From assembly GCF_937425535.1 (NCBI RefSeq), contig NZ_OW485601.1, positions 4,199,501 through 4,263,500 of the forward strand: a stretch of 64,000 nt of DNA. The letters run 5' to 3'. Position 1 is the stretch's first letter. The number at the start of each line of letters is the position of its first letter. This document shows positions 422-64,000 of the stretch, one piece after another. Source of the DNA: Rhodovastum atsumiense. GTDB taxonomy: Bacteria > Pseudomonadota > Alphaproteobacteria > Acetobacterales > Acetobacteraceae. The translations under genes were made by a program, and so were the position numbers. The notes beneath the pieces were generated by a model. It saw only the letters and a program-made list of their open reading frames with translations. It made no database searches and had not been told where the DNA came from.

Positions 422-3400
422 ATGTCCCTCTCTCCGCCCAGATCCCCTGCCTCTGTCTGGACGGCGCTGGCCAGGGTGGTTGCGGCGTGCCGGGCGCGGT
501 TGCGCCCGCGGGAACAGGCCGGATACTGGCGCGTGCTCGCCGCCGCCGTGCTGGGGCTGGCCCTGGCCGTCGGCGCCGGCGCCTACCTGCTGCACCAGCG
601 CGAGGAGGTGCTGCGCGACGGCGGGCGCGAGCTGCGCAACATCGCCCTCGTGCTGGCCAACTGGGTGGAGAGCGATTTCAACGCCATCGCCTTCCTCGAA
701 GACAGCGTGGCGGAATGGGTGCGCGCCGAGGACATCGTCACGCCCCAGGCGTTCCGCGAGCAACTGGGCGGGCGCGACGTGCACCTTTCCCTGCGCGGGC
801 GCATCGGCGCGCTGCCGCGGGTGCGGCGCCTGTTCCTGGTCGATGCCGCGGCGCAGGTCGTCGCCAGCTCCGGCGGCTGGCCGGCCTCCGCCCCGTCCCT
901 GGTGGACCGGCCGTATTTCCAGGTGCTGCGCGACGATCCCGCATCGCAGGTGGTGTTCAGCGACCCGTTGCGCAGCGTGGTCGACGGGCGCTGGAACATC
1001 TACGTCGCCCGCCGGATCGCCGCCCCGGACGGGACCTTCCTCGGCATCGTGGTCGCCGCCCTCGACCTTGCCTATTTCGAGCAGGCGTTCGGCCGCCTGC
1101 AGCTCGGCGGGCGCAGCGCGGTGGCGCTGTATCGCCAGGACGGCATGCTGCTGGTGCGCCATCCCTGGCCGGAGCAGCGCATCGGCACCGTCCTCGGCCC
1201 CGACGACCCGGTGCGGCGGATGCTGGCGGGCGTGGAGGGCGGCACCGTCACGCGGACCAGCCCGGTGGACGGGATCGAGCGCCTGATCGCCGCGCGCCGG
1301 CTGCAGGGCTACCCGCTCTATCTCGTGGCCGGGCGCGCCACCGCGGAGGTGCTGGCACCGTCGCGCCAGGAAGCCGGACGCATCCTGCTGGGCGTGCTGG
1401 CGCTGCAGGGCGCCATCGCCGCCGGCGTGCTGCTCGCCGCCCGGCACGACCGGCACCGCCGCGCCATGCGCCGGTCGCGGGCGGCACAGGCCGAGGCCGA
1501 AGCCAGGGCCGCGCTCGCCGAGCAGGCCGCGCGGGCGGCGCGCGCGCGGGAACACGAGGCGGCGCTGGACGCCGTCTTCGCCAGCGGCTCGGCCGGCCTG
1601 GCCGAACTGGAGATCGCCTCCGGCCAGCCGCTGCGCGCGAACCGCCGCTATTGCGAGATCGTCGGGCGCGGTGAAGCGGAGCTGCGCGCCGGGGTGCCGG
1701 ACGAGATCGCCCGCTGGCTTCGTGGCGCCGCCGCCCGGGGCAGCCGGGAGACCGAGCTTTGCCTGCAGCGGCCGGACGGCAGCACGGCATGGGCGCATCT
1801 GAGCCTCTCGGTGTCGCGTCGCGACGAAGCGGGGCGGCCGCTGCGCTGCATCGCCATCGTGCAGGACGTGACCGAGGCGCGCGCCGCCACCGAGCAGTTG
1901 CGCGCAAGCGAATCGCTGCTGCGCCTGAGCATGGAGATCGGCCATATCGGCACCTTCCGCCGCGACCTGCGCGCGGGCCTGATTCATTGCGGGCCGCGGA
2001 CCCGGACGCTGCTTGGCCTGCCGGAGGGCGACGAGCCGGTGCCCACCGAAGCCTGGCTGGCGGTCCTGCTGCCCGAGGAGCGGGAACGGGTGCGGCGGCG
2101 GATCGAGGAAGCGCTGGCGCAGCGCCTGCCGGACCTGCATCTGCATTACCGCTGCCACCGGCCCGGCGACGGCAAGACCCGCCATATCGAGGTGCGCACC
2201 CGCTACGACTACGACGCCGACGGCACCCCGCTGTCCACGCTCGGCGTCGTCATCGACGTCACCGCCGCGCGCGAGGCCGAGGACCTGCTGCGGCTGTCCA
2301 TGCAGGCCGGCCGCATCGGCACCTTCCGCCACGACTTCACCACCGACCTGGTCGAATGCAGCGCGGAAGCGCGGTCGATGTACGGCCTGCCCGCCGGCGA
2401 GGCGCCGCTGACCGCCGCGCAATGGTGGAGCGCGATCCTGCCCGAGGACCTGCAGCGCCTGCGCGCGCTGATCGACGCCAGCACGATGACCCGCGCTGAC
2501 GGGGAGAACGCCAATTTCCGCATCCGCCACCTGGAGAACGGCACGCTGCGCCATGTCGAATCCCGGGTCCGGCGCGAATATGCCGCCGACGGCACCCCGC
2601 TCAGCGCGCTCGGCGTCGTCATCGACGTGACCACCGCCCGCGAGGCCGAGGCGCTGCTGCGGCTGTGCATGGAAGCCGGCCGCATCGGCACCTTCCGCCA
2701 CGACTTCGCCACCGGCACCGTCGAATGCAGCCCGCAGGCCCGCGCGCTGTACGGCCTGCCGCCAGGCGAGGAGCCGGTCACCGAGGCACAATGGTGGGGC
2801 GCGATCCTGCCCGAGGACCTGCAGCGCCTGCGCGCGCAGATCGCGACGAGCACGGCGGCGCGGGCCCCCGCGCTGGTCGCCAACTACCGCATCCGCCATC
2901 CGCGCGACGGTGGCCTGCGCCATTTCGAATCCCGGGTCCGGCGCGAATATGCCTCGGACGGGCGGCATCTGTGCACGCTTGGCGTGGTGCTCGACGTGAC
3001 CGAGCAGCGCGAAGCGGAGGCGCACATCGCCCATCTCGCCCAGCACGACGCGCTGACCGGGCTGCCCAACCGGATGCTGTTCCGCGAGCGGCTGGAAGCG
3101 GCGCTGGCGCGGGCGCAGCGCGGGCACGGCTGCGCGGTGATGCTGGTGGATCTCGACCGGTTCAAGGAAGTCAACGACACGCTCGGCCATCCGGTCGGCG
3201 ACGCGCTGCTGCGCGAGGTCACCGCGCGGCTGCAGGGGGTGGTGCGCGAGACCGACACGCTGGCACGGCTCGGCGGCGACGAGTTCGCCATCATCGCCGT
3301 GGATGTCGACCTGCCGGAAAGCGCCACCGTGCTGGCGCGGCGCGTGGTCGAGAGCCTCGGCGCGCCGTTCCGGCTGGACGGGCAGCAGGTCGGCATCGGC

Positions 3401-4333
3401 GCCAGCGTCGGCATCACCGTCTCGCCCGCGGACGGGCTCGATCCGGACATGCTGGTCAAGGCTGCCGATCTCGCGCTGTATCGCGCCAAGGCGGAGGGGC
3501 GCGGCTGCTGGCGCTTCTTCGAGACGGAGATGGATGCGCGCATGCAGAGCCGCCGCGCCCTGGAACTGCAACTGCGCGACGCCCTGGCCACCGGCGCCTT
3601 CGAGGTGTTCTACCAGCCGATCGTCGAGGTGGGCTCGCGTCGCGTCGCCGCGATGGAGGCGCTGCTGCGCTGGCACCATCCCGAATCCGGCCTGGTACCG
3701 CCTGCGGGCTTCCTGAAGCTGGCCGAGGAAACCGGGCTGATCGTCCCGCTCGGCGAATGGGTGCTGCGGCGGGCCTGCGCCGAGGCGGCGACCTGGCCTG
3801 GCGGACCGAGGGTCAGCGTGAACCTCTCGCCCGCGCAGTTCACCCATCGTGGCCTGTCCGCCGCGATCACCGCGGCGCTGGCGGAGTCCGGGCTCGCGCC
3901 GGAGCGGCTGGAACTGGAGATCACCGAGGCGGTGATGCTGCAGGACCCGGCCGCGACCGAGGCCACGCTGCGGCTGCTGAAAGCGCTCGGGGTGCGCATC
4001 GCCATGGACGATTTCGGCGCGGGCCAGTCCTCGCTGGGCTGCCTGCGCCGCTTTCCTTTCGACCGGGTGAAGATCGATCCCGGCTTCATCCGCGATCTCG
4101 GGGCTTCGCAGCAGGACAACGCCATCCTGCGCGCGCTGGCCGCGCTGTGCGCCGGGTTCGAGATGACTCCCACCGCCGAGGGCGTGGAGACGGAAGATCA
4201 GCTCGCGGTGCTGCGCCGCGAGGGCTGCGCCGAGGCACAGGGCATCCTGTTCAGCGCGCCACTGCCGGGCGAGGCGGTGCCGGCGCTGCTGCGGCGGCTG
4301 CAGCAGGCGGCGCCGGACACGCCTTCAGTTTGA
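422..4333 (+). CDS. Membrane sensor diguanylate cyclase/phosphodiesterase (periplasmic sensor, PAS repeats, GGDEF, EAL)
   Basis: A 1303-residue c-di-GMP enzyme. A transmembrane helix lies near residues 35-55, a Cache-like periplasmic domain at about 60-310, and a second helix at about 318-340. A first PAS-like domain precedes three tandem PAS units starting near 497, 621 and 745, the last two almost duplicates. GGDEF is intact at about 951 with an RxxD inhibitory site (RETD) five residues before it. The EAL domain has EAL at 1079 and keeps VNLSP, LEITE, DDFGAG, KID and EGVE metal/catalytic motifs, so both activities are possible. The net direction cannot be told from sequence. The ATG at 422 starts a typical Pro/Ser-rich then basic leader. 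The gene is monocistronic and its 3' end overlaps the efflux-gene remnant by 9 bases. Confidence 0.93.
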   Translation: MSLSPPRSPASVWTALARVVAACRARLRPREQAGYWRVLAAAVLGLALAVGAGAYLLHQREEVLRDGGRELRNIALVLANWVESDFNAIAFLEDSVAEWVRAEDIVTPQAFREQLGGRDVHLSLRGRIGALPRVRRLFLVDAAAQVVASSGGWPASAPSLVDRPYFQVLRDDPASQVVFSDPLRSVVDGRWNIYVARRIAAPDGTFLGIVVAALDLAYFEQAFGRLQLGGRSAVALYRQDGMLLVRHPWPEQRIGTVLGPDDPVRRMLAGVEGGTVTRTSPVDGIERLIAARRLQGYPLYLVAGRATAEVLAPSRQEAGRILLGVLALQGAIAAGVLLAARHDRHRRAMRRSRAAQAEAEARAALAEQAARAARAREHEAALDAVFASGSAGLAELEIASGQPLRANRRYCEIVGRGEAELRAGVPDEIARWLRGAAARGSRETELCLQRPDGSTAWAHLSLSVSRRDEAGRPLRCIAIVQDVTEARAATEQLRASESLLRLSMEIGHIGTFRRDLRAGLIHCGPRTRTLLGLPEGDEPVPTEAWLAVLLPEERERVRRRIEEALAQRLPDLHLHYRCHRPGDGKTRHIEVRTRYDYDADGTPLSTLGVVIDVTAAREAEDLLRLSMQAGRIGTFRHDFTTDLVECSAEARSMYGLPAGEAPLTAAQWWSAILPEDLQRLRALIDASTMTRADGENANFRIRHLENGTLRHVESRVRREYAADGTPLSALGVVIDVTTAREAEALLRLCMEAGRIGTFRHDFATGTVECSPQARALYGLPPGEEPVTEAQWWGAILPEDLQRLRAQIATSTAARAPALVANYRIRHPRDGGLRHFESRVRREYASDGRHLCTLGVVLDVTEQREAEAHIAHLAQHDALTGLPNRMLFRERLEAALARAQRGHGCAVMLVDLDRFKEVNDTLGHPVGDALLREVTARLQGVVRETDTLARLGGDEFAIIAVDVDLPESATVLARRVVESLGAPFRLDGQQVGIGASVGITVSPADGLDPDMLVKAADLALYRAKAEGRGCWRFFETEMDARMQSRRALELQLRDALATGAFEVFYQPIVEVGSRRVAAMEALLRWHHPESGLVPPAGFLKLAEETGLIVPLGEWVLRRACAEAATWPGGPRVSVNLSPAQFTHRGLSAAITAALAESGLAPERLELEITEAVMLQDPAATEATLRLLKALGVRIAMDDFGAGQSSLGCLRRFPFDRVKIDPGFIRDLGASQQDNAILRALAALCAGFEMTPTAEGVETEDQLAVLRREGCAEAQGILFSAPLPGEAVPALLRRLQQAAPDTPSV

Positions 4334-4690
4334 CGCCGGCGCCGATGCGGACGCGGCCGGGAAGCTGTCTTCCCAGTCGCCGCCGAGGGCCTTGTAGATC
4401 AGCACGGGGTTGATCGAGATCGTCGTGGTGCTCTCGACCAGTTGCTGTTCCATCGCCAGCGCGCTGCGCTGCGTGTCGAGCACCTGCAGATAGGGGATGT
4501 CGCCGTCGCCGAAGCGCGTCCGCGCCTGCCGCAGGGCGAACCTGCACCTCGTGCAGCGCCCGCAGGATGGTGCGCTGATAGGCAATGGCGGCTTCCTGCT
4601 GCTGCGCCTTGCGCAATTCCAGGAACCGCCGCAGCCGGCCACCTTCGAAGATCGGCAGGGTGATCGTGGGGCCGAACGTTCGCCACGCCG
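4325..4690 (-). pseudogene. Remnant of a TolC/NodT-type outer-membrane efflux protein (5' truncated, frameshifted)
   Basis: Two reverse frames together encode the C-terminal part of an RND outer-membrane factor. One (about 4690-4540) reads GPTITLPIFEGGRLR followed by a helical ALHEVQ segment. After a shift near 4535-4550, the other frame reads FGDGDIPYLQVLDTQRSAL and LIYKALGGDWE up to the stop at 4325. These blocks are characteristic of the family's final helical hairpin. About 115 of the expected 450-500 residues remain, there is no start codon, and at least one frameshift is present. No RND pump genes are nearby. The broken 5' end meets an aldolase fragment on the other strand. Confidence 0.75.
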
Positions 4691-4702
4691 GCCCTGGCCG
4701 AG

Positions 4703-4917
4703 GCCCGGTGGCGGCCCTGTCCGGCCGGACCGCCTGCCTGCTCGCCAACCATGGGATGGTCTGCCACGGGACCGACATCGCTTCGGCGCGACTCGCCGCG
4801 CTGCGGCTGGAGAGCCTGGCCCGGCAATACCCGATCGCCAGCGCCGCCGGGACGGTGCGGCTGCTGACCGATGCGCAGTTCGCCGCTGCCTGCCTGCGGT
4901 ATCGCAGCTATGGGTAG
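4703..4917 (+). pseudogene. C-terminal fragment of a class II aldolase/adducin-family gene
   Basis: The forward frame gives about 70 residues matching the end of L-fuculose-phosphate aldolase-type proteins: RTACLLANHGMVCHG (the ANHG motif contributes a zinc-ligand histidine), then a helical segment ending LESLARQY and a C-terminal RYRSYG before the TAG stop. The first two thirds, including the catalytic glutamate and HxH zinc ligands, are missing. The upstream sequence belongs to the oppositely oriented efflux-gene remnant. I read it as the tail of an aldolase gene left by a deletion or rearrangement with its junction near 4690-4705. Confidence 0.65.
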
Positions 4918-4971
4918 CAGCCAGGGACCTGCAGGCCCCTGGATCCCGTAAGCGCCGCGCGGCACGGCAAG

Positions 4972-5068
4972 TGTAGGGCGGATAAGCGAAGCGCAATCCG
5001 CCGTCGCAAGGTGGCCACCTCGCGGAACTGTGGCGATGGCGGATTGCGCTGCGCTTATCCGCCCTACA
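4972..5068. repeat. 97-bp interspersed palindromic repeat, copy 1
   Basis: The outer arms TGTAGGGCGGATAAGCG and CGCTTATCCGCCCTACA are perfect inverted complements, with inner arms continuing through GCGCAATCCGCC and GGCGGATTGCGC. The whole unit can fold into one long hairpin. A near-identical copy lies at 8208-8303 and a decayed one near 21513-21590. It sits in the gap between the aldolase scar and the 3' end of the kinase gene. Size and structure fit a REP/BIME- or MITE-like non-autonomous element; no transposase is nearby. Confidence 0.85.
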
Positions 5069-5081
5069 TGGATCCCGCGAC

Positions 5082-6371
5082 TCACCGCCGGCGTGCGACA
5101 GGCCCCAGCAGGCGCCGGAAGCTTTCCTGTTCCGCCGTCCGCGGGATGTGCCGCAGGCAGCCCTGCATCAGCGTGTCGAGGTCGGGCGATCGCGCCAGCA
5201 GGTCGCGCAGCAGCAGCGGCGCCACCGGGCCGAGCACCTGGGTCAGCGCGCTTCGCACCGTGGCGATCGTCGCCTCGTCCAGCCCGCCCGTGGACAACAG
5301 GTCCCGCATCTCGCGCGTGAAGCTGCGTTGTTCGCCGGCATCCGGCAGCAGGGCGACCAGCCGGGCGCAGAGATCCTCCGGCGAGGCGGACGCGGCGAGG
5401 GCATGGCGCAGGTGATGGCGCGCCATCGGGCCGACATGGTGCGCGAGCCGCCGCTCGATCGTGGTCAGCGTCGGGGGATCCAGGGTGCCGGCGAAGGAAG
5501 GCGGCGCGGTAACGACCGTGGTGTCGCCCGCCGCGTCGGCCGCGATGTCGCCGGGCAGGGCCTCCAGCGCCCGCGCCATCGCGCCGGCATCGGCGAAGCG
5601 GTCCTCGGGGCGCTTGCGCAACGCCCGCTCCACCACCTCCACCAAAGCGGGCGGCAACTCGGGCCGCAAGTCCGACAGCGGGGCCGGCGGCTCGTGGATC
5701 AGTCGGTGCATCGTGGCGAGGGGCGTGTCGGCGGCAAAGGCGCGGCGGCCGGCGAGCAACTCGTACAGGACGCAGCCGAACGAGAACAGGTCGCTGCGCG
5801 CGTCCACCGCGCCGCCCAGGCATTGTTCCGGCGACATGTAGCAGGGCGTGCCGACCAGCGCCGAGGTCATGGTCGCATCCGTCGCGAGCGCGCGCGAGAT
5901 GCCGAAATCGGTGACCTTCAGCCCGGCCTTGTCGGCAAGCAGGATATTCGCGGGCTTGATGTCGCGGTGGATGACGCCGAGGCCGTGCGCATGGCCCAGC
6001 GCGTCGAGCACCGGCAGGGCAATGCGCCGCAGCGTCGCCGGCGCCAGCCGGGTGCCACGCGGGAAGGCGCGGCCGAGATCGCGTCCCTCGACATATTCCA
6101 GCACCAGGAACGGATTGCCCTCGTGCTCGGCGTAATCGTGGATGGCGACGATATGGGGATGGACGCAGCGCCCGGCCAGGCGCGCCTCGTTGCGGAAGCG
6201 CGCGAGGGACTGGGCCCGGCTGTCGCCGTCCAGCAGGTCGGCGCGCACCAGCTTGATCGCCACCGTCCGCTCGATCCGGGGATCATGCGCCTTGTAGACC
6301 ACGCCCATGGCGCCGCGCCCCAGCACGCCGAGCACCCGGAAGCGGCCAATGTGGTCCGGGGACGTTTCCAT
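5082..6371 (-). CDS. ppkA: Serine/threonine protein kinase of the T6SS threonine-phosphorylation switch
   Basis: A 429-residue protein with a Hanks-type kinase domain at about 1-265: Gly-rich loop GRGAMGVVYKAHD, catalytic loop HRDIKPAN, TDFGIS and the APE-like MSPEQ segment, all apparently active. It lacks the transmembrane/periplasmic half of Pseudomonas PpkA. Instead it has a roughly 140-residue all-helical tail of unknown function. It is the last gene of T6SS operon 1, 6 bases after the haem-sensor gene. Established knowledge: PpkA phosphorylates the FHA protein to activate T6SS assembly and PppA reverses this; both partners are encoded in operon 2 (28967-30247 and 21628-22359). The symbol is by role. 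Confidence 0.88.
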   Translation of the reverse strand: METSPDHIGRFRVLGVLGRGAMGVVYKAHDPRIERTVAIKLVRADLLDGDSRAQSLARFRNEARLAGRCVHPHIVAIHDYAEHEGNPFLVLEYVEGRDLGRAFPRGTRLAPATLRRIALPVLDALGHAHGLGVIHRDIKPANILLADKAGLKVTDFGISRALATDATMTSALVGTPCYMSPEQCLGGAVDARSDLFSFGCVLYELLAGRRAFAADTPLATMHRLIHEPPAPLSDLRPELPPALVEVVERALRKRPEDRFADAGAMARALEALPGDIAADAAGDTTVVTAPPSFAGTLDPPTLTTIERRLAHHVGPMARHHLRHALAASASPEDLCARLVALLPDAGEQRSFTREMRDLLSTGGLDEATIATVRSALTQVLGPVAPLLLRDLLARSPDLDTLMQGCLRHIPRTAEQESFRRLLGPVARRR

Positions 6372-6377
6372 GGAGGG

Positions 6378-7250
6378 TCAGCCGTCCAGCATGCGCAGCG
6401 CGGCGGCAAGGCTGCGCCGCATGCGGTTGAACGAGCGTGACAGCGAGCCGATCTCGTCGCGCCCGCCGGTGTCGAATTCCGGCGCGTCCATGTTGCCGAG
6501 GCTGACCTCGTCGGCGACCTTGGTGATGCGCCGGACCGGCGCGATGATGGCGACGTGCAGCAGCAGGTTGACCAGCAGGATCATCACCGCGAACACGCCC
6601 GACAGCCCCAGCATGACGCTGGTCAGGGTCTGGCGCGCCCGGTCCTGGGCGACGCGCTCCGGTACCGACACCACGCGGGCGCCGACGATCTCGTTCAGCT
6701 TCCAGCCGAAGCCGTTCTCGCTGCCGTACACGTCGATCATGGAAGGCGGCGCAGCCTGGGGCGTGGAGTGGCAGGCGAGGCAGGACGGGTCGCCGACCCG
6801 CACCGGCTGCGCATAGGACAGGATCTGGCCGGCCGGGGTCTGGCGCTCGCTGACCAGGGAGGACAGCGTCGGCTGGGCGATGAAGGTCTGGATGATCTCG
6901 CTTTCCCACGGCAACGGCCGGTCGGTGGGATTGGTCGGGTTGAGCGTCGGATGGCGCACGCTGTAGTCGGGGAACTCCTTCGCCATCAGCGCGAAGGTCT
7001 GCTGTGCCGTGAAGAACGGGATGGCCTGCGGCAGGAACTGCACCTTCAACGACCGCTCCAGCAGCGGCGAGACCTGCGTGTCGGTGTAGTGGATGGTGGC
7101 GTCGAGCTGCCCCATCATGATCGCCGCTTCCGACATCACCGCCTGCCGGGCGGTGCGCTGGCTCAGCACGTTCACCAGCAGCGCCGCCAGCCCGAGCCCG
7201 ATCAGGAAGGCCACCACCATCACCAGGTTGAACTTGAGGCGCAGGCTCAT
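6378..7250 (-). CDS. Membrane Tll0287-like haem (CxxCH) sensor with C-terminal HAMP domain
   Basis: A 290-residue protein: N-terminal membrane helix at about 8-30, periplasmic region at 35-200 with a single c-type haem motif CLACH at 157-161 in a Tll0287-like (DUF3365) context, second helix at about 205-228, then a HAMP domain ending soon after DEIGSLSRSFNRM. There is no kinase, methyl-accepting or cyclase output. ATG 7250 overlaps the stop of the pseudo-caspase gene (ATGA), and the kinase gene follows 6 bases downstream. I infer that it may sense redox state or a small ligand outside the membrane and pass this through HAMP to a partner, most simply the adjacent kinase. Confidence 0.8.
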   Translation of the reverse strand: MSLRLKFNLVMVVAFLIGLGLAALLVNVLSQRTARQAVMSEAAIMMGQLDATIHYTDTQVSPLLERSLKVQFLPQAIPFFTAQQTFALMAKEFPDYSVRHPTLNPTNPTDRPLPWESEIIQTFIAQPTLSSLVSERQTPAGQILSYAQPVRVGDPSCLACHSTPQAAPPSMIDVYGSENGFGWKLNEIVGARVVSVPERVAQDRARQTLTSVMLGLSGVFAVMILLVNLLLHVAIIAPVRRITKVADEVSLGNMDAPEFDTGGRDEIGSLSRSFNRMRRSLAAALRMLDG

Positions 7251-8401
7251 GGGGTTGCCTCCGGGGCGTTGAGCAGGCGGCTCACCTGCGATGGCGTCGG
7301 CACGCCGGTCGGCGGATCGCCGATCCGGGCCTGGAAGTCACGGATCGCCGCCTGTGTGCGCGGGCCGAGGATGCCGTCGATCGGGCCGGGATCGCTGCCT
7401 TCCCGGGCCAGCGCCGCCTGCAGGCGGCTGACGCGGGCATCGCGGGGCGACAAGGGGGGAGCGGCGGCGGTTGCCGGCGGCGCGGCCGGTTCGGGCGCCG
7501 GCGGCGCCGTGGCGATAGGCGGCGCGGGCGGCGCCGGCGGGGCAGGGGGCGGCAGCAACAGCACCTCGCCATGCTCCGGCCGCGGCAGCGCCCGCGCGAA
7601 CGCGTCCCAGCCCGCATCGGGTCGCGCCCCTTGTCCCAGCGCGCCGAGCCCGGCGCCCGGACCGGTCCACAGCGCCATATGCAGCCCCGACGGCAGGCGG
7701 CGGCGCAGCACGGCCAGGGCCGCCGCGGCATTGTCGTCCGGCGGCAGGCCCAGCTCGGCCACCAGCGTGCCGCCGCTGCCGTCTAGCGCGTTCAGCAGAG
7801 CCTGCACGATGATGCCCTGCGTCTCTGGCCGCAGCGGCTTCTGCAGATCGGTATCGGCGGGCAGCACGAACAGGCGCTGGCCCTCGGCGGCGGCAGCGCC
7901 ACAGACATAAATCAACGCGGCGCCGGTGCCGCCATCGGCGCGTTGCGCGGCGAAGTCGTCGAGCGCGGCACGCAACGCGACGGCGGGTGCGTCGAGTCGT
8001 TCCATCACGGTGAAGCCGTCCTGCCGCAGCCGCTCGCGCAGCGCCTGCACGGCGGGACGGCAGCCGCTGTGCTGCGGGTGTCCGGCATAGACGTCGTTGC
8101 CGATCAGCAGGGCGATGCCCCGATCCGCCGCCGCGGCGGGGGCGAACGGGACCAAGGCAGCGAGGAGGGCGCCGGCAAGCGGAAGCTGCCGGAAAGGCCA
8201 GGACTCTTGTAGGGCGGATAAGCGCAGCGCAATCCGCCATTGCAAGGGTCCGTAAGGTGGCCGGCTTGCGTTGGCGGATTGCGCTGCGCTTATCCGCCCT
8301 ACATGACCGGGTTCCAAGGGCTTTGCCCTTGGTGGAGGTCCAGGAGGCGAAGCCTCCTGGTGGGGTGCGGGGCAACGCCCCGCCAGGCGGATTCGGGTCA
8401 T
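7247..8401 (-). CDS. Exported caspase-like (degenerate) protein with C-terminal peptidoglycan-binding domain
   Basis: 384 residues as read from ATG 8401, which overlaps the tssG stop. Residues 1-5 and about 66-92 look like one signal peptide interrupted by about 60 residues encoded by inserted repeats (8208-8387). A caspase-like (C14) fold starts at RGIALLIGNDVY (about 94-105). The usual AGHG histidine motif is replaced by YVCGAA (about 165-170), and the expected DAC cysteine segment reads VAELG, so the active site is lost. A Pro/Ala-rich linker leads to a PG_binding_1 domain at about 320-375 (LQAALAREG, DGILGPRTQAAI). In operon context it may anchor or regulate the T6SS at the cell wall. Confidence 0.75.
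   Translation of the reverse strand: MTRIRLAGRCPAPHQEASPPGPPPRAKPLEPGHVGRISAAQSANASRPPYGPLQWRIALRLSALQESWPFRQLPLAGALLAALVPFAPAAAADRGIALLIGNDVYAGHPQHSGCRPAVQALRERLRQDGFTVMERLDAPAVALRAALDDFAAQRADGGTGAALIYVCGAAAAEGQRLFVLPADTDLQKPLRPETQGIIVQALLNALDGSGGTLVAELGLPPDDNAAAALAVLRRRLPSGLHMALWTGPGAGLGALGQGARPDAGWDAFARALPRPEHGEVLLLPPPAPPAPPAPPIATAPPAPEPAAPPATAAAPPLSPRDARVSRLQAALAREGSDPGPIDGILGPRTQAAIRDFQARIGDPPTGVPTPSQVSRLLNAPEATP
8208..8303. repeat. 96-bp interspersed palindromic repeat, copy 2, inside a coding region
   Basis: Same outer arms (TGTAGGGCGGATAAGCG / CGCTTATCCGCCCTACA) and inner arms as the copy at 4972-5068; most differences are in the loop. It lies inside the reading frame of the pseudo-caspase gene, between the start codon and the hydrophobic core of the signal peptide. 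Together with the adjoining hairpins it adds about 180 bases, a multiple of three, so the frame stays open. Confidence 0.88.
8314..8383. repeat. Cluster of three short perfect hairpins
   Basis: Three consecutive inverted repeats: 8314-8332 (CCAAGGGC-TTT-GCCCTTGG), 8340-8360 (CCAGGAGGC-GAA-GCCTCCTGG) and 8367-8383 (GCGGGG-CAAC-GCCCCGC). They are contiguous with repeat copy 2 and lie in the same interrupted signal-peptide region. A related cluster occurs at 54534-54627, with the same first-hairpin design and an identical CAACGCCCCGC string, so this is a dispersed family rather than a local feature. Confidence 0.75.
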
Positions 8402-9378
8402 GGCGAGTCTCCTGCGGCGAATAACGCCTCATCGGCATCCCGCGTGCGATGGCGTCGGGGCAGCCAACTGTCCCGGCCCAGTTGCCGGGCGCCGAGCGAC
8501 AGTGGCGGGACCGCGGCCGCCGCCAGCACCGGTCGCACGGCGAAGCCGGTTTCCATCCCGAGATACGTCCGCGCCAGCGACATCAGTTGCGGCAGCACCG
8601 CGCCGCCGGGCATCAGCGCGCGGAAGCGGTCGTACTCCATCGGGCCGATGCGCAGCACCACGCGGGACTGGATGTCCCAGCAGCGCGCGCCGGCGGCGGC
8701 ATCGACGCCCAGCCGGTGGAAGCGCCCGGCCACGCCGCGCGCGGGCAGGGCGGTGCGCTCCTCGCGCGCCGGCCGCAGCCAGTGCCCGGCGAATTGCTCG
8801 ACCGTCACCGCCTGCCCGAGCCAGTCCGACAGCAGCGCGCCCAGGCGCTCGGCCGAGCGCGGCCGTATCGCGAAGCTGCCGGCGTGGAACAGCACCGCAT
8901 CCAGGATGGGGCCAAGCCGCTCCGCCATACCGGGGAGCCCGTGCCCGACCAGGGCGAGCAGGGCGTCGCGCATACCGTCGGCCGGCGTCTCGGCGAGCCG
9001 GTGCGGCCGGTACTTGATCCCGGCACGCAGGAACTGGGCGAGCGGGCGTTGCGCCAGCAGGTCGAGGAAGGCGCCGAGCGCCGGGGCGCGCCGCCGCCGC
9101 TCGCCGTTGACCAGTTCGGTATAGGGCCGCGGCAGCACGCCCGACGGGCCGGTCAGGCCGAGCAGGCCGGTGGTGAGGGCAAAGCCCGCGCCATCGGCTG
9201 CTACCGCCGCGACGTCGGCGGCGACGAAGCCGAGCCCCGCGCTGGCATGGAAGCGGATGGCGTCCCCCGGATCGGCGCGGCCGGCGGCGCGCATCATCAC
9301 TCCCGCGGCTGCGTCCAGCCCGAAGCGCGACGGCTCGGCAAGCAGCGCCTGCCGCAAGGTCGGCGGCGCGGCGTTCAC
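8398..9378 (-). CDS. tssG: T6SS baseplate subunit TssG
   Basis: 326 residues starting at GTG 9378, whose GTGA overlaps the tssF stop. Family hallmarks include the N-terminal LAEPSRFGLDAA segment, IRFHASAGLGF, GLTGPSGVLPRPYTEL, and the C-terminal block with GPMEYDRFRALMPGG, LVRTYLG-like and LGRDSWL segments. TssG forms the TssEFGK wedge with TssF under the sheath and hub. Length matches the usual 300-350 residues. It is translationally coupled to tssF and to the pseudo-caspase gene. Confidence 0.95.
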   Translation of the reverse strand: MNAAPPTLRQALLAEPSRFGLDAAAGVMMRAAGRADPGDAIRFHASAGLGFVAADVAAVAADGAGFALTTGLLGLTGPSGVLPRPYTELVNGERRRRAPALGAFLDLLAQRPLAQFLRAGIKYRPHRLAETPADGMRDALLALVGHGLPGMAERLGPILDAVLFHAGSFAIRPRSAERLGALLSDWLGQAVTVEQFAGHWLRPAREERTALPARGVAGRFHRLGVDAAAGARCWDIQSRVVLRIGPMEYDRFRALMPGGAVLPQLMSLARTYLGMETGFAVRPVLAAAAVPPLSLGARQLGRDSWLPRRHRTRDADEALFAAGDSP

Positions 9379-11195
9379 AGCAGCACCCGCGCCCCGGCCA
9401 GCGGGGCGAAGCGCGCCGCCACGCCGGGGCGTCCCTGCAGCACGCACTCGGTCCGCACGAAGCTGTTGACCGTGGCGTGCAAGGCGAGAAACCGGCTCAG
9501 CACCGAGGCCAGCAGGTAGAGCCCGCCGCTCTCCCAGGCGCGCGGCTCGAATTCCAGCGTGACGTCGAGGCCGCGACAGAAACTGCCCGGCCGCGCCCCC
9601 GGCACCCGCGCGGTGCCCGGCCGCGAGCGCACCCCGACCAGGGCGGCGATGGCGGCGCGCGTTTCCTCGGTGTCGCGCAGGTCGTAGAGCCGCAGCATCT
9701 CCCGCAAGCTCTCCGCCGCCGCCGGGCCGCCGACCAGCGACACCTGCCCGAGCGAAAGATGCGAGATCAGCCGCCAGCTTCGCTGCTCGCGCAGGGGCGC
9801 GCGCAGCGAGGCGCCGGGTGCGGTGAGGCAGGTGACGGCGGCGACGGCGCTCGATCCTTCCGGCAGGTGCAGGCGCGGCTGGCCGCCGCCGAAGGGCAGT
9901 TCGCCCGGCAGGTCGCGGTTGCTGCACAGCGCATCGACCGAGAGCACGCCTTCGGCGGGGCGATCGACCGACAGCGCCGGATCGAAGGGCGCGAGCAGCA
10001 CGTCGCTGCCCGGCCCGCCGGGGCTGTCGCGCCGGGACAGCAGGTAGAAGCCGCAGGCGCCGGACTCGGTGCCGGGGCCGGTCGCCTGCCGGTAGAAGGG
10101 CTGCCACGGCCGCGTCGTGCCGTCGTCGCGCAGTTCGTTGACCCGCTCGACGCTCCAGACTTCCAGCGCGGCGGGGCGGCGAGCGTCGGGCACCACCGGG
10201 TATTCGGTGCGGTGATAGTCGAGCCGCACCGGCTCGCAGGGCTGGCGGAACAGGTTGACCACCGGGGTGCAGCCGAGCGCGAGGCAGTCGGGCGGCAGGC
10301 GCCGTTCCAGCTCCGGGCGCGCGGCGTCGAAATAGAGGAACAGCTCCAGCCGGTGGCTCTCCTGCACCAGGGTACGGGCGTCCAGGCCGGTGAGGTCGAG
10401 GAACAGGAATTTCTCGGGCAACGCGAAATATTCAGTCAGCAGGCGGAATCCGGAGAAGGCGCGCGCCGACCAGGGATAGAGCGCATCCTCGGGGGCGAAG
10501 CCGACCGGGCGCAGCAGGGAGGGCGGCAGCAAGGTGGGGCGGTCGTCGTTCGGCCCGTTGGCCAGGGCCGCGCCCAGCAGATGGCCGCAGAGCAGTTCGT
10601 ACAGCGCGAGGCTCTGTTCGGCCGGGCCGCGCAGGAACAGCCGCAGCGTCGCCGGGGCAAGTGCCGCGAAGGTCACGTCGGGATCGGTGGTGGACAGCAC
10701 CACGCGCAGCACGCTGCGCGCGCCCTTCGCCGCCGGGTTGGCCGGGGCGGCCAGAGGCAGGCCGGTCAGCCGCGCGCTCTCGATCGTCACCGGCCACAGC
10801 GTGGTGTCGCCGGTGGTGCGGAAGCGGCAGGGCTCGCCGCGCACCGGATCGGTTTCCAGCTTGGTGCCGGCGGGCAGCGTCACCTTCACGCGCAGGTCCG
10901 GGCGCGCGGCGAACTGCACGATCGCCGCGGCGGGCACCGGCGCCAGATAATGCGGATACAGCGCCCCGAGCAGGGCATCGGTGATTTCGGGGAACTCGTC
11001 GTCCAGCCGCTGCTGCACGCGGGCGCAGAGGAAGGCGACGCCTTCCAGCAGCCGCGCGACATGCGGATCGTCCACCACCCCCGGCCCCAGCCGCAGCCGT
11101 CCGGCGACCTTGGGATGTGCCTCGGCGAAGCTGCCGGCGAGGGTGCGCAGCGCGTCGAGCTCGCGGTTGTAGACGGGGAGCAGGCTGTCCGACAC
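9375..11195 (-). CDS. tssF: T6SS baseplate subunit TssF
   Basis: 606 residues from GTG 11195, one base after the tssE stop. The N-terminus SLLPVYNRELDALR followed by AHPKVAGRL and DPHVARLLEGVAFL is the diagnostic opening of TssF, and the DDEFPEITDALLGALYPHY segment follows. An upstream extension of the same frame (to 11303) reads a low-complexity Pro/Ser stretch overlapping tssE and is rejected. Expected size for the family is about 580-620. Co-transcribed with tssE and tssG; its product forms the baseplate wedge. Confidence 0.96.
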   Translation of the reverse strand: MSDSLLPVYNRELDALRTLAGSFAEAHPKVAGRLRLGPGVVDDPHVARLLEGVAFLCARVQQRLDDEFPEITDALLGALYPHYLAPVPAAAIVQFAARPDLRVKVTLPAGTKLETDPVRGEPCRFRTTGDTTLWPVTIESARLTGLPLAAPANPAAKGARSVLRVVLSTTDPDVTFAALAPATLRLFLRGPAEQSLALYELLCGHLLGAALANGPNDDRPTLLPPSLLRPVGFAPEDALYPWSARAFSGFRLLTEYFALPEKFLFLDLTGLDARTLVQESHRLELFLYFDAARPELERRLPPDCLALGCTPVVNLFRQPCEPVRLDYHRTEYPVVPDARRPAALEVWSVERVNELRDDGTTRPWQPFYRQATGPGTESGACGFYLLSRRDSPGGPGSDVLLAPFDPALSVDRPAEGVLSVDALCSNRDLPGELPFGGGQPRLHLPEGSSAVAAVTCLTAPGASLRAPLREQRSWRLISHLSLGQVSLVGGPAAAESLREMLRLYDLRDTEETRAAIAALVGVRSRPGTARVPGARPGSFCRGLDVTLEFEPRAWESGGLYLLASVLSRFLALHATVNSFVRTECVLQGRPGVAARFAPLAGARVLL

Positions 11196-58863: not shown

Positions 58864-59784
58864 ATGGCCGATGACCCGCGACGCCTGACGCTCGAGCAGA
58901 TGCGCGCCTTCCTGGCCGTCGTCGAGGATGGCGGTTTCCACCATGCCGGGACGCGGCTGCACCGCTCCCAGGCGGCGATCACCCATCGCCTGCAGGCGCT
59001 GGAGGAGGTGTTGCAATGCCAGTTGGTGATCCGCCGCCAGGGGCGGGTCACCCGGCTGACCGAGGCGGGCCAGCGCTTCCTGCACCATGCCCGTGACGTG
59101 CTCGATCGCGTGGACGCGGCGATGGATTCCGTGCGCCGCGACGAGTTCAAGGGCAAGCTGCGGGTCGGCGTGCCGGATGATTTCGCCATCGAGCACCTGA
59201 TCCAGGCGGTCCGGCGCTGCGTCGCTTCCAACATGCGGCTGCAGTTGGACGTGGTGTCCGATCTCTCGGCGCGGCTGTCGCGGATGATGGAGGAGAACGC
59301 GCTCGACCTGGCCTTCATCAAGCGGCTGTGCCGGTCGCGCGGCCCGGGGCGCGGCGGCGTGCGCATCGTGGTGGAGCCGCTGCTGTGGGTGGCGGATCGC
59401 GAGGTGGCGCTTGCGGATTTCGACGAGGTGCCGCTGGTCGTGTTTTCCGAAGGCTGCGTCTACCGCGAAGCCGCGGCGACGGCGCTGGCGCGGATCCGCA
59501 AGCCCTGGCGCGCCTCCTACAGCAGCACCAGCTACGAGACGGTGCGGCGCGCCGTTTCGGCGGGGCTCGGGGTCGGTATCCTGCCGCGCAGCGCGCTGGC
59601 GCCGGGCCACTGCATCCTGGACGCGCAGCGCGGCTTTCCCCCCTTGCCGGAGATGGAACTGACCGCGGTGGTGGCGCCGCACGGCCAGCACCGGCTGGCT
59701 TCCCAGGTCGCCGCCTACATCGCCAGGACCTGCGCGACGCCGTGGAAGGAAACGCTGGGGGAGGCGCGCGGCCGGGCGGCGTGA
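58864..59784 (+). CDS. LysR-family transcriptional regulator
   Basis: 306 residues. N-terminal helix-turn-helix with LTLEQMRAFLAVVEDGGFHHAGTRLHRSQAAITHRLQALEEVL, then the substrate-binding domain (GKLRVGVPDDFAIEHLIQAVRR, LDLAFIKRLCRS, AVSAGLGVGILPRSAL). The recognition-helix segment SQAAITHRLQALE is canonical. It likely regulates the divergent exporter/methyltransferase operon in response to the exported compound. Confidence 0.92.
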   Translation: MADDPRRLTLEQMRAFLAVVEDGGFHHAGTRLHRSQAAITHRLQALEEVLQCQLVIRRQGRVTRLTEAGQRFLHHARDVLDRVDAAMDSVRRDEFKGKLRVGVPDDFAIEHLIQAVRRCVASNMRLQLDVVSDLSARLSRMMEENALDLAFIKRLCRSRGPGRGGVRIVVEPLLWVADREVALADFDEVPLVVFSEGCVYREAAATALARIRKPWRASYSSTSYETVRRAVSAGLGVGILPRSALAPGHCILDAQRGFPPLPEMELTAVVAPHGQHRLASQVAAYIARTCATPWKETLGEARGRAA

Positions 59785-59999
59785 TCCGGTGTTGACGGGA
59801 TGCGGATGACGGGCGTATCGAGCCGTATCGGCACGGGATTGTTTCCCGTCGCCCGCTCGGGAGCCTGGATGTCGGAGATTGTGACCGGCCGCTGATGCCT
59901 CGCGGTTGCGGGACATCATGCGAAGCCTGACCGGAGCAGCGCCCATCATGGTGCGCGCCCGGTGCTGTCCTTTCGCGACGTCTGGCCTGGACTTCCGAC

Positions 60000-60257
60000 A
60001 TGAATCTCTCCAGGGGAGAACAGCGCGTCCTGCACGTGCTGGCCCAGGGCGGCCATATCCGCCACGACCATTCCACCCGTACCCGCATCATCGCCGTCCA
60101 TTGCGTCACCCGTGACGGCTACCGTTTGGGTGATTGCACGCTCGGCATCTTCGCGCGGCTGCGGCGCAAGCGCCTGATCGAATCGCATGATGGCGGCCCC
60201 TACCGCATTTCGCGGGCAGGCCGCGCCGCCGTGCGGCCGCAGCCCGACAACCGGTGA
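60000..60257 (+). CDS. YjhX-like (UPF0386) small protein
   Basis: 85 residues from ATG 60000. It aligns with E. coli YjhX from memory: MNLSRGEQRVLHVLAQGG, the central VHCVTRDGY, LADCTL-like LGDCTLGIF, LRRKRLIES and GPYRISRAG through the C-terminal DNR. YjhX is described as the toxin of the YjhX-YjhQ pair (topoisomerase inhibitor). No GNAT-type YjhQ partner gene is visible within several kilobases, so it may be a solitary chromosomal homologue. Start supported by an upstream GGACTTCCGAC region with weak ribosome-binding potential. Confidence 0.85.
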   Translation: MNLSRGEQRVLHVLAQGGHIRHDHSTRTRIIAVHCVTRDGYRLGDCTLGIFARLRRKRLIESHDGGPYRISRAGRAAVRPQPDNR

Positions 60258-60436
60258 CGGGGCCACATGATTCCGTCACGCCACGCTGCATCCGGGACAG
60301 GCAGGATGCACATCCGGCTTCGCGACGAATGGCCGGCGCCGTGAGCCCCAGGGCTGTTCGACGCCAGCGGCCTGACGTGCCCCTTGCATGTTGCCGCAAC
60401 GGGTGCGCGCCACAATAAGTAGGCGTAATGCGCATT

Positions 60437-60473
60437 ATTTCACCGGGAAGCCGTTGATACTTTCTGGTGAAAT
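60437..60473. promoter_or_regulatory. Inverted repeat upstream of the LprI-like gene
   Basis: ATTTCACC (60437-60444) and GGTGAAAT (60466-60473) are perfect complements separated by 21 bases. A perfect 12-bp palindrome TAATGCGCATTA (60426-60437) abuts it, and CACAATAAGTAG lies at 60411-60422, the same 12-mer as at 42201. The 285-base gap between the YjhX-like and LprI-like genes otherwise holds no gene. Hairpin or operator functions are both possible. Confidence 0.45.
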
Positions 60474-60542
60474 AGTGTGGCATTATCGATGGATCGATAT
60501 ACGATGCCGTTAAATGCATTCCATTTGAGGGATGAGTGGTCA

Positions 60543-60938
60543 ATGATGCTTCGTCTGAAACTGACCGCCGTGGCATTCATCCTCATGCTGACCCAGGCAT
60601 GGGCGGGCTCGCCGGAACTGGCGGTGTGCATGGACCATGTTGATCTCGGGGCGCTCAAGACGACGCAATGGATTGCATGCCAGGAGCAGGAACTGGCGCG
60701 GCAGGATCATCGGCTCAACGCCGAATACAAGAAGCTGCGATCTCAGGTTGCTGTAACAGGCAAAGAAAATGTCAACATGCTGATTGGTGCCCAGCGTCAA
60801 TGGCTTGCCTTCAGGGAAGCCTGGTGCAATTTCGAGGCGGCGTTCGCCGGAGCGCCCGGCCCCGCGTTCAACCGCGTCGCCTGTATGGTTGATCTGACCA
60901 CGGCGCAGGCGGACAAACTTCATTCCTCATTGCAATAG
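60543..60938 (+). CDS. LprI-like (DUF1311) secreted small protein
   Basis: 131 residues from ATG 60543. Signal peptide MLRLKLTAVAFILMLTQAWA, then a mature domain with four cysteines (AVCMDH, IACQEQ, AWCNFEA, VACMVD) and LGAQRQWLAFREAWC-like (QRQWLAFREAWC) motif of the DUF1311/LprI family, in which the cysteines pair. Some members inhibit lysozyme, so a role in protecting peptidoglycan is possible. Base composition is lower in GC than its neighbours. Confidence 0.82.
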   Translation: MMLRLKLTAVAFILMLTQAWAGSPELAVCMDHVDLGALKTTQWIACQEQELARQDHRLNAEYKKLRSQVAVTGKENVNMLIGAQRQWLAFREAWCNFEAAFAGAPGPAFNRVACMVDLTTAQADKLHSSLQ

Positions 60939-61211
60939 ATTAAGTAAAAATCGAATAGTCGCCAGGGCTTCTGCTGCCGGTTCGCCGGGACATGCGTGGC
61001 GCCTGAATTCGTAAATAAAAAATTCCAACGTCGTGGCGATGTGGTTCGTCTGCTGAATATTGCAGAGACACATCCGTCATAACGACTGAAAATCCGCCTG
61101 CCGCATCATTGCCGCTTGTGGCCTTGCTCCGCGCGGACAATGGTCATGCGACTTCCGCCCGCGCCGGCCTGCCCGGCCGGGGGCCGGGAGGGAAAACAGC
61201 GAGAGCCATCA

Positions 61212-62141
61212 ATGTCAGACGAAACCCTCGCGCCGACAGCCGTTGGCGACGTCGCCGCCCGTCAGCTCGCGAACGCGACCAAGACCGTGCCGATGATGTC
61301 GACCATCACGCCGCGGTGGCTGGTGCGGTGCCTGCAATGGTTGCCCGTCGAGGCCGGCATCTTCCGGCTGAACAAGGTGCGCGACGCCTCGCATGTCACG
61401 GTGGACTGTTCGGCGCAGGACGAGCGCGACCTGCCGCAGACCTTCGTCGACTACGAGGAAAAGCCGCGCGAGTACATGCTGACGGCGGTGACGACGGTGG
61501 TGGATGTCCACACCCGCATCTCCGATCTCTACAGCGTGCCGCATGACCAGATCGCCCAGCAGCTCCGCCTCACCATCGAGGCCATCAAGGAACGGCAGGA
61601 AAACGAGCTGGTCAACAACCGCAGCTACGGCCTGCTCAGCAACGCCGCGCCGGAGCAGCGGATCAGCACCCGCACCGGTGCCCCCACCCCCGACGACCTC
61701 GACGAGCTGATCACCAAGGTCTGGAAGGAGCCCGGCTTCTTCCTGGCGCATCCACGGGCGATCGCCGCGTTCGGCCGCGAATGCACCCGCCGCGGCGTGC
61801 CGCCGGCCACCATCACCATGTTCGGCTCGCCCTTCCTGACATGGCGCGGCATTCCGGTGGTGCCCTGCGACAAGCTCGCGGTGGAGGACGGCCGCACCAA
61901 CATCCTGCTGCTGCGCACCGGCGAGGTGCGGCAGGGCGTGGTCGGACTCTACCAGCCCAATCTCGCCGGCGAGCAGAGCATCGGCCTGTCGGTGCGCTTC
62001 ATGGGCATCAACCGCAAGGCGATCGCGTCCTACCTGGTCTCGCTTTACTGCTCGTTGGCCGTGCTGACCGACGACGCCCTGGCGGTGCTCGAGAACGTGG
62101 AAGTGGGCAAGTACCATGCTTACCCGGACACCTATGCCTGA
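61212..62141 (+). CDS. Family 2A encapsulin shell protein
   Basis: 309 residues from ATG 61212 (GAGAG about 8 bases upstream; a longer frame to 61116 is rejected). The N-terminal arm ARQLANATKTVPMMSTITPRWLVR, then LPVEAGIFRLNKV, and the HK97-fold regions REYMLTAVTTVVDVHTRISDLYSVPHDQIAQQ, VWKEPGFFLAHPRAI, TITMFGSPFLTWRGIPVVPCDKL and YHAYPDTYA match SrpI-type shells as I recall them. Length is normal for the group. Such shells self-assemble into roughly 24-nm compartments loaded with a cysteine desulfurase. That cargo gene follows with an 8-base overlap (62134-62141), so shell and cargo are translationally coupled. Confidence 0.93.
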   Translation: MSDETLAPTAVGDVAARQLANATKTVPMMSTITPRWLVRCLQWLPVEAGIFRLNKVRDASHVTVDCSAQDERDLPQTFVDYEEKPREYMLTAVTTVVDVHTRISDLYSVPHDQIAQQLRLTIEAIKERQENELVNNRSYGLLSNAAPEQRISTRTGAPTPDDLDELITKVWKEPGFFLAHPRAIAAFGRECTRRGVPPATITMFGSPFLTWRGIPVVPCDKLAVEDGRTNILLLRTGEVRQGVVGLYQPNLAGEQSIGLSVRFMGINRKAIASYLVSLYCSLAVLTDDALAVLENVEVGKYHAYPDTYA

Positions 62142-64000
62142 GCCCGAGGGCCACGGACTGCCGGACCTGGCGTGGCTGACGCAACTGGCGAACGAGATGT
62201 TCCACGCGCTGCCGACCAGCCCCGGATCGCCCGGCCCGCTGCCTTCGGGCGGGGTGCCGGCCGGCGTGGTGCCGGCGGGGGCCCCGACGACAGGGCTGCC
62301 GACGACAGGGCTGCCGAGGACGGCGGTGCCGACGGGGGCGTTCGGGGGGCCTGGCGTGTCACCGGCCTCGACGCCATTGCCCGACGCGCCGGACCCCGGC
62401 CTCGCCGCCCCCGGCATCGGGGGCGCCCATGCCGCGGCGGCACCGCTGGCGGCCCGCGTGCCGCCGCCGCTGCCCCGTTCCCCGACGCTGCCGGGCGTGA
62501 CGGCCGGTCCCGCCACGCTGGGCGGCATTGGCCTCGCCCCGCCTTCGGCGCCGCTGCCTGCGGCCGGGCCGCCGGTGCCCCCCGGCACGTCGTTCTACTT
62601 CCTCGACGAGGGCCACCGGGGCGCGGCCGCGCTGCCCGATCCCACCGTGCCCGGCGCTTCTGGTCCTGGCCCCTCTGTTCCTGACGTGGGGCAGGGGACC
62701 GGCGCGGCGCTGGCAGCCGCGGCCCCGCTGACGGCCCGCGCGGTGCCGGCCTTGCCGCCGGTGCCGGCCTTGCCGGGGGTCTCGGGGCCACCCGGCGCGC
62801 AGGGCGGTTTCGGCGCCCCCCCGCCCGCGTCCCCGCTGCCCGTCGTGCCGGCGCTCGGCCCGGCCATCCCGGGGCAGGAGGCATTGCAGGCGCTGCTCAT
62901 GCCGGCCCTGCCGCCGCCCCAGGCCCGGCCCGCGCCGTCCCCGGGCGGCCCGACGCCCTCGCTCTATTTCCTCCAGGATCTGGACGGGGGCGGGGTGCCG
63001 GCCGGGGCGATGCCCGCCTCCACGCCGGGGGCCGGCTTCGATCCGCACTCCCGCCGCGGCGACTTCCCGATCCTGGCCGAACGGGTGAACGGGCGGCGGC
63101 TGGTCTGGCTCGACAACGGCGCCACCACGCAGAAGCCGCGCGCGGTGATCGAGCGGCTGGTGCGGTTCTACGAACACGAGAACTCCAACATCCATCGCGC
63201 CGCGCACGAGCTTGCCGCCCGTGCCACCGATGCCTACGAGGGGGCCCGCGAGGTGACGCGGCGCTTCCTGAATGCGAGCGCGCCCGAGGAGATCGTGTTC
63301 GTCCGCGGCACCACCGAGGGCATCAATCTGGTCGCGCAGAGCTGGGGCCGGCGCTTCATCGGCGCGGGCGACGAGATCGTCATCACCTGGCTGGAGCACC
63401 ACGCCAACATCGTGCCGTGGCAGATGCTGGCCGAGCAGACCGGGGCGAAGCTGAAAGTGGCGCCGGTCGACGATGACGGGCAGGTGGTGCTCGATGCCTA
63501 TGCCAACCTGCTCGGGCCGCGGACGAAGCTGGTGGCGTTGACGCAGGTATCGAACGCGCTTGGTACCATCACGCCCGCGCAGGCGATGACGGCGATGGCG
63601 CACGCGGTCGGGGCACGGGTGCTGATCGACGGGGCGCAATCGGTGGCGCATATGCGCACCGACGTGCAGGCGCTCGGCTGCGACTGGTTCGTCTTCTCCG
63701 GCCATAAGGTGTTCGGCCCCACCGGCATCGGCGCCGTCTACGGCCGGCGCGACGTGCTGGCGGAAACCCCGCCCTGGCAGGGCGGCGGCAACATGATCCG
63801 CGACGTCACCTTCGAGTACACCGAGTACCAGGACCCGCCCGCCCGCTTCGAGGCCGGCACCGGCAACATCGCCGATGCCGTGGGGCTGGGGGCGGCGCTC
63901 GACTACGTCCAGCAGGCCGGGCTGGAGGCGATCGGCGCGCACGAACACGCGCTGCTGGAACATGCGCTGCATGACCTCGCGCATGTCCCCGGCTTGCGCC
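62134..64000 (+). CDS. Encapsulin cargo cysteine desulfurase (SufS-type) with long disordered N-terminal loading region, 3' truncated by the window
   Basis: 622 residues are visible. Residues 1-30 hold a short amphipathic segment, LAWLTQLANEMFHALP. Residues 30-305 are Pro/Ala/Gly-rich and disordered, but contain two similar motifs, SFYFLDEG (Tyr155) and SLYFLQDL (Tyr278). From about 310 the class V PLP fold begins: LDNGATTQKP, SNIHRAAHEL, RGTTEGINLV, LEHHANIVPW, and the PLP lysine in FSGHKVFGPTG. The catalytic cysteine loop would lie beyond the window. In family 2A systems the N-terminal extension targets the enzyme into the shell; the YFL and ANE motifs are the obvious docking candidates. 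Confidence 0.9.
   Translation, partial: MPEPEGHGLPDLAWLTQLANEMFHALPTSPGSPGPLPSGGVPAGVVPAGAPTTGLPTTGLPRTAVPTGAFGGPGVSPASTPLPDAPDPGLAAPGIGGAHAAAAPLAARVPPPLPRSPTLPGVTAGPATLGGIGLAPPSAPLPAAGPPVPPGTSFYFLDEGHRGAAALPDPTVPGASGPGPSVPDVGQGTGAALAAAAPLTARAVPALPPVPALPGVSGPPGAQGGFGAPPPASPLPVVPALGPAIPGQEALQALLMPALPPPQARPAPSPGGPTPSLYFLQDLDGGGVPAGAMPASTPGAGFDPHSRRGDFPILAERVNGRRLVWLDNGATTQKPRAVIERLVRFYEHENSNIHRAAHELAARATDAYEGAREVTRRFLNASAPEEIVFVRGTTEGINLVAQSWGRRFIGAGDEIVITWLEHHANIVPWQMLAEQTGAKLKVAPVDDDGQVVLDAYANLLGPRTKLVALTQVSNALGTITPAQAMTAMAHAVGARVLIDGAQSVAHMRTDVQALGCDWFVFSGHKVFGPTGIGAVYGRRDVLAETPPWQGGGNMIRDVTFEYTEYQDPPARFEAGTGNIADAVGLGAALDYVQQAGLEAIGAHEHALLEHALHDLAHVPGLR

Follow-up and report, generated by a model that had tools for sequence, protein, structure and literature searches.

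The genes at the right-hand end of the window (the 64,000-nucleotide stretch of DNA analysed here, G000:C1:4199501-4263500) very probably form a canonical family 2A encapsulin operon, with a cysteine desulfurase loaded in the shell. By analogy, sulfur is likely to be stored in the particle. Gene identity, gene order, overlap, and the catalytic and shell residues were read directly, and the same genome was followed beyond the window edge as L009. The operon sits on a chromosomal contig of 6.5 Mb, and the genome has one copy of the shell gene. Two sufS-type genes scored above cut-off in this genome, one of them inside a suf cluster, as did three cysE genes. Since the genome also has two photosynthetic reaction-centre genes, the host is probably a phototroph, in agreement with the purple-bacterium background guessed by the sequence-only reading. 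The features are collected in Table 1.

Table 1. Positions of the features, counted in the window unless a locus is named
Feature	Position	Strand	Basis
Family 2A encapsulin shell gene (SrpI-like, 309 aa)	61212..62141 (ATG at 61212, stop ending at 62141)	+	PF19307 360 bits (cut-off 22.8); NF041162 encap_f2a 534 bits (cut-off 380); PDB 6x8m E 2.4e-155
Family 2A cargo cysteine desulfurase (CyD), 714 or 708 aa	62116 or 62134..64000, running 260 bases beyond edge	+	NF041166, TIGR01979
Aminotransferase class V domain of desulfurase	63103..64000, continuing beyond edge	+	PF00266; PLP-Lys codon (SGHK) 63706-63708
N-terminal arm of cargo, ~300 residues, Pro/Ala/Gly-rich	62134..63033	+	Composition; putative cargo-loading region by analogy
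Arm motif 1, LTQLANEMF (published form LARLANEFFS)	62176..62202	+	Pattern match; published motif
Arm motif 2, first copy, SFYFLDE (published form AASPYYFLDG)	62590..62610	+	Pattern match; published motif
Arm motif 2, second copy, SLYFLQD	62959..62979	+	Wide pattern; missed by narrow one
Possible degenerate third motif, PGQEALQALL (relatives PGEAELRALL)	62869..62898	+	Read from sequence; outside counting pattern
LprI-like gene	60543-60938		PF07007, 58 bits
Sulfate-assimilation cluster with its own cysE	L148 (G000:C1:5748000-5760000), 2052-6760	minus	Domains, gene order

The family 2A model fitted the shell best, followed by the NCBIfam family 2B model, whose cut-off was also exceeded (435 bits, cut-off 400), and by the best phage head family, a PHROG major head protein with a weak match of 31 bits. 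The sequence-only reading had named a family 2A (SrpI-like) shell and proposed a comparison with other shells and with phage capsids; since the 2A model scored best, the claim came through that comparison. PF19307 was the sole Pfam match in the shell. Its top solved relatives were Protein SrpI (6x8m) and Major membrane protein I (8t6r), the latter presumably an A. baumannii structure. Residues 8-304 aligned to 6x8m without gaps, and an HK97 fold with an N-arm is predicted by homology to that structure only. Neither the Pfam scan nor the ungapped alignment over residues 8-304 revealed a cNMP-binding domain in the shell. The family 2B encapsulins, which are cNMP-domain shells, share the HK97 core with the window shell, and some of them have a desulfurase cargo (PMC8346489, in excerpt); the window shell, however, is 309 aa long and has no cNMP-binding domain, compared with open frames of 452-520 aa in the loci judged to be 2B. 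Assignment to family 2B was therefore rejected, even though its model scored above cut-off.

Five residues of the window shell (R193, G195, P197, F263 and Y274) are the same letters as in SrpI, with the numbering shifted by +1. According to the excerpts of PMC8049743, SrpI R192, G194 and P196 lie at the pore, and F262 and Y273 near the cargo density. The pore-charge residue R304 of SrpI becomes Pro305 in the window, by an alignment extrapolated one residue beyond its end; Arg is described as poorly conserved at this position (PMC8049743, in excerpt). Promoter, terminator and Rfam scans (59500-64000; 60900-61300) found nothing. A small dyad, GTCATAACGAC, lies at window 61076-61086, ~125 bases before the shell start, and is a possible operator. 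Similar, non-identical dyads apparently occupy the aligned place before the shells of loci L011-L015, as judged by eye.

The desulfurase gene ends at L009 5761. Its 708-aa form, read from the genome, scored 821 bits with the family 2A cargo model NF041166 (cut-off 800) and 551 bits with the sufS model TIGR01979 (cut-off 475), and together with the PLP-Lys codon these scores bear out the SufS-type cargo with visible PLP motifs that had been described earlier. The catalytic Cys (RAGHHCAQP), which was to be looked for past 64000, was found 120 bases beyond the edge, at 64120 if the window numbering is continued. The SGHK lysine and the RAGHHCAQP cysteine have the roles that they play in SufS enzymes generally. 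The second SufS of the genome has no arm and lies beside SufB/SufD-type and ABC-ATPase genes; thus, the encapsulin-linked copy is not the housekeeping one.

The reading frame of the desulfurase opens upstream of the shell stop. The 8-base overlap reported by the sequence-only reading corresponds to the ATG at 62134 and the 708-aa protein, but an in-frame ATG at 62116 would give an overlap of 26 bases and 714 aa. In a comparison of starts limited to ATG (76 rows, window included), the desulfurase frame opened before the shell stop in 74 rows. The commonest pattern was a sole ATG at overlap 26 (29/76), followed by a sole ATG at 14 (21/76). Three of the 76 rows, taken to be the Rhodopila loci L013-L015, offered only overlap 8 near the stop.

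A scan of genome contigs revealed 535 relatives, the best 80 of which were kept. Directly after the shell, 79 of these 80 loci carry a desulfurase, including L079, where it is in broken frames; the 80th locus (L038) ends ~550 bases after the shell. The same arrangement was found in all hold-out 2A loci (13/13). In L079, from Aquitalea pelogenes, the desulfurase is spread over three overlapping frames (6860-8723), and is therefore either frame-broken or mis-sequenced. Among the best 80 of 535, the nearest named shells come from MAGs of uncultured Acetobacteraceae and of Rhodopila (L011-L015). They are 80-87% identical to the window shell, lie in the same order shell-CyD-CysE and group with it in a single clade (98/98, the bootstrap not being fully settled).

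Shell matches were found in 5 of 200 genomes of the family (4/102 genera), in 5 of 385 drawn from the class and in 17 of 398 drawn from the phylum, where all counts include the window's own genome and the class and phylum draws overlap. Judging by frame length and split matches, 1/5, 2/5 and 4/17 of these, respectively, are of the 2B type, and one further class match is a weak fragment. Hence, the type is scattered and uncommon within the family, and occurs widely outside it. The excerpts of a paper on Acetobacteraceae (PMC8776678) mention linocin M18 encapsulins with DyP peroxidase only. G076, a genome from the same genus as the window's, carries a second shell-CyD-CysE set besides an intact one (L102, G076:C71:44000-62000, ~5700-9300, minus strand). 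In this second set, the shell changes frame near residue 40 and the desulfurase has a short arm of ~154 residues, reflecting either decay or an assembly error.

Past the window edge, the end of the desulfurase is followed by cysE (L009 5791-6666), one of the genes that the sequence-only reading had proposed to look for there. The other, a rhodanese gene, was not recognised: three small ORFs behind cysE matched no Pfam family, and the remaining small ORFs beside the operon were judged by eye, the Pfam scan having covered only some. A 95-aa ORF after cysE (L009 7071-7358, plus strand), which has no Pfam family, looks like a real small protein. Beyond cysE, the opposite strand carries a sodium/hydrogen exchanger, a caspase-domain gene, a Pfam-less protein and a PAS/histidine-kinase/receiver protein. 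The Peptidase_C14 caspase-domain gene adjoins the last two, of 355 and 1016 aa (L009 8844-14460, minus strand). Upstream of the shell lie LprI, LysR and EamA genes, which were compared by BLAST with the ORFs of the best 80 of 535 related loci. LprI and EamA had no match at 1e-8 in these loci, some of which are partial, so that neighbourhoods are incompletely counted; LysR matched in 5 of the 80 loci, with a family-level identity of 30-32%. All three were accordingly rejected as parts of the system. The LprI-like neighbour noted earlier is a real gene, but its link to the system did not hold.

The operon cysE encodes 291 aa with SATase_N and hexapeptide domains (TIGR01172, 239 bits, cut-off 211). 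Among the best 80 of 535 loci, a serine ACETYLTRANSFERASE lies directly upstream of the shell in 55 loci (29-37% identical to the window's) and directly downstream of the cargo in seven (63-82% identical), the latter from Acetobacteraceae, Rhodopila and Pararhodospirillum. In the other 18, some of them partial, it is lacking or otherwise placed. The upstream kind scored above the EpsC cut-off and below the cysE cut-off (3/3 tested, S. elongatus included), the downstream kind above both (3/3 tested, window included), and an 18-row tree separates the two kinds (100/100). Several loci of the window's lineage use another class of serine acetyltransferase, encoded behind the cargo gene instead of ahead of the shell. 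As a family-wide rule, this switch is weakened by G080 and G100, two genomes of the same family with a 2A shell, in whose fetched stretches no cysE match was found. In L011, the operon cysE has a further cysE as its convergent neighbour (9864-10811, minus strand), with 72% identity to that of the window.

Elsewhere in the window's genome, in the L148 cluster, is a cysE that shares 80.6% identity with the one in the operon. This paralogue adjoins two PAPS-reductase-type genes and a GTPase/APS-kinase gene, which by order and domains are predicted to be cysH, cysD and cysNC. A search within 12 kb of it for remnants of a shell or desulfurase gave nothing better than E 0.19. It seems that, for this role, one lineage recruited a duplicate of the CysE that it uses in sulfate assimilation. 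An enrichment of serine acetyltransferases at loci of this kind has been published (PMC8346489, in excerpt). Literature searches for serine acetyltransferase and for Rhodopila found no paper.

Pro, Ala and Gly make up 57% of the first 300 residues of the desulfurase vs 28% of its rest. The ~305-residue disordered N-terminus of the sequence-only reading stands as ~300 residues before the SufS homology, with disorder predicted from this composition. A role of the arm in loading has been published for S. elongatus, together with the arm motifs LARLANEFFS and AASPYYFLDG (PMC8049743, in excerpt). Both motifs are present in the window arm, the second of them twice (residues 153 and 276), and 6/9 aromatic residues of the arm fall inside motifs. 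Residues 86-175 and 176-300 form a repeated module, with a score of 161, whereas 500 shuffles that preserved the composition reached 116 at most; the split was picked by eye once the repeat was seen. Duplication of this module appears to have given the two copies of the YFL motif. DNA repeats in the arm are short ones only, with 74-94% identity.

We compared 84 arms, 80 of which came from the loci chosen as nearest to the window (best 80 of 535). A narrow pattern for motif 2 matched 74 of the 84 arms, and was widened after it missed the window's second copy. With the wide pattern, two YFL copies were found in 24 arms, one in 56 and none in 4; of these four, two have a PYFL variant and another, L079, was cut at the wrong place. 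In each of the five nearest relatives, L011-L015, the arm carries a single YFL copy and matches a third-motif pattern (type PGEAELRALL) three times; in the window arm, YFL occurs twice and that pattern finds no match. The pattern, written after the 84 arms had been viewed, matched 38 of them in 60 copies (shuffled mean 0.63, maximum 3). Leaving out the wrongly cut L079, motif 3 was found in 38/83 arms, motif 1 in 76/83 and wide motif 2 in 80/83. Among the hold-out arms, motifs 1 and 2 were each found in 11/13 and the third motif in 2/13 (shuffled mean 0.09). Given this low hold-out count, the third motif was rejected as a general feature and is limited to some lineages; the window's own copy does not fit the pattern. 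It is not one of the two motifs named in the excerpts of PMC8049743, and we claim no novelty for it. The motif 1 pattern used here had no match in the S. elongatus arm. Tentatively, the arm might be a tunable multivalent loading device, in which stickers (LANEMF, YFL, PGExELxxLL) set in a Pro/Ala/Gly spacer are duplicated or lost between species, so setting the firmness of packing or the number of enzymes packed; the window arm would then have duplicated a whole spacer-plus-YFL module.

The closest described system is SrpI/CyD of Synechococcus elongatus PCC 7942 (PMC8049743, in excerpt; PDB 6x8m, 6x8t), whose shell is 75% identical to the window's across residues 10-304. Both have a desulfurase cargo with a low-complexity arm, and both have cysteine-synthesis genes in the cluster (cysK and epsC in S. 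elongatus). The arm is ~300 residues long in the window and 225 in S. elongatus, with two YFL copies in the former and one in the latter. The serine acetyltransferase of the window is of another class and follows the cargo gene, whereas that of S. elongatus precedes the shell. In S. elongatus, cyd is followed by a rhodanese-like gene; none was recognised at the window operon, which lies on a chromosomal contig, whereas the S. elongatus cluster lies on a plasmid.

Herein, we describe how the operon, in the order shell, overlapping cargo desulfurase and cysE, might work, with the particle, its loading and the entry of substrate taken from published relatives. Sixty shell copies would assemble into a T=1 particle. 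The arm of the desulfurase, predicted to be disordered, would bind to the inside of the shell close to its threefold axes, so bringing in the enzyme during assembly. Cysteine would enter via the fivefold pore, the enzyme would take sulfur off it, alanine would exit, and the sulfur would stay behind in the particle. CysE would make O-acetylserine, feeding the cysteine pathway. In S. elongatus, the excerpts of PMC8049743 report a T=1 shell, arm-driven loading and likely cysteine entry by the fivefold pore. They also report knockouts with no growth defect, a point against the proposed role. For sulfur storage, PMC12140327 (in excerpt) cites Nichols 2021 and two Benisch and Giessen papers. Retention of sulfur in the particle, as opposed to its being passed on, is the least certain step of the process. 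The Benisch and Giessen papers on storage reportedly deal with A. baumannii.

If the compartment is as described, its sulfur may instead be passed on, by a persulfide relay to an acceptor at the shell, to supply Fe-S clusters or thio-cofactors under sulfur shortage. The enzyme is of the SufS type (TIGR01979), a rhodanese acceptor is proposed in the excerpts of PMC8346489, and the gene after cyd in S. elongatus is rhodanese-like; nevertheless, no rhodanese was recognised beside the window operon, where the scan covered some of the small ORFs, and a suf cluster with its own SufS is already in the genome. We regard such a relay as unlikely. More doubtful still is that the shell serves for control by sequestration, with no sulfur kept, restraining an enzyme which, if free, would deplete the cysteine of the cytosol. 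Although the excerpts of PMC8049743 name this possibility, they also report that the encapsulated S. elongatus enzyme is ~sevenfold more active than the free one. The HK97-type ancestry of the shell and the weak PHROG match would fit a domesticated or decaying phage head gene that forms no compartment. However, the encapsulin match is far stronger (534 vs 31 bits) and comes with a dedicated cargo, a desulfurase follows the shell in nearly all of the best 80 of 535 loci, and no phage genes were found among the scanned neighbours. An HK97-type phage major head protein was therefore rejected, and a phage origin without a compartment is given almost no credence. A family 2A compartment loaded with desulfurase is the reading that we prefer.

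Many genomes are already known to carry this type of system, and the operon is a sound identification of it in a new host; the understanding of the system is unchanged by these findings. Sulfur encapsulins gain a probably phototrophic, Acetobacteraceae-like host, and the duplicated arm module offers a naturally occurring variant with which to study what governs cargo loading. That the operon is tied, depending on the lineage, to one or the other of two classes of serine acetyltransferase argues that its link with the supply of cysteine is real.
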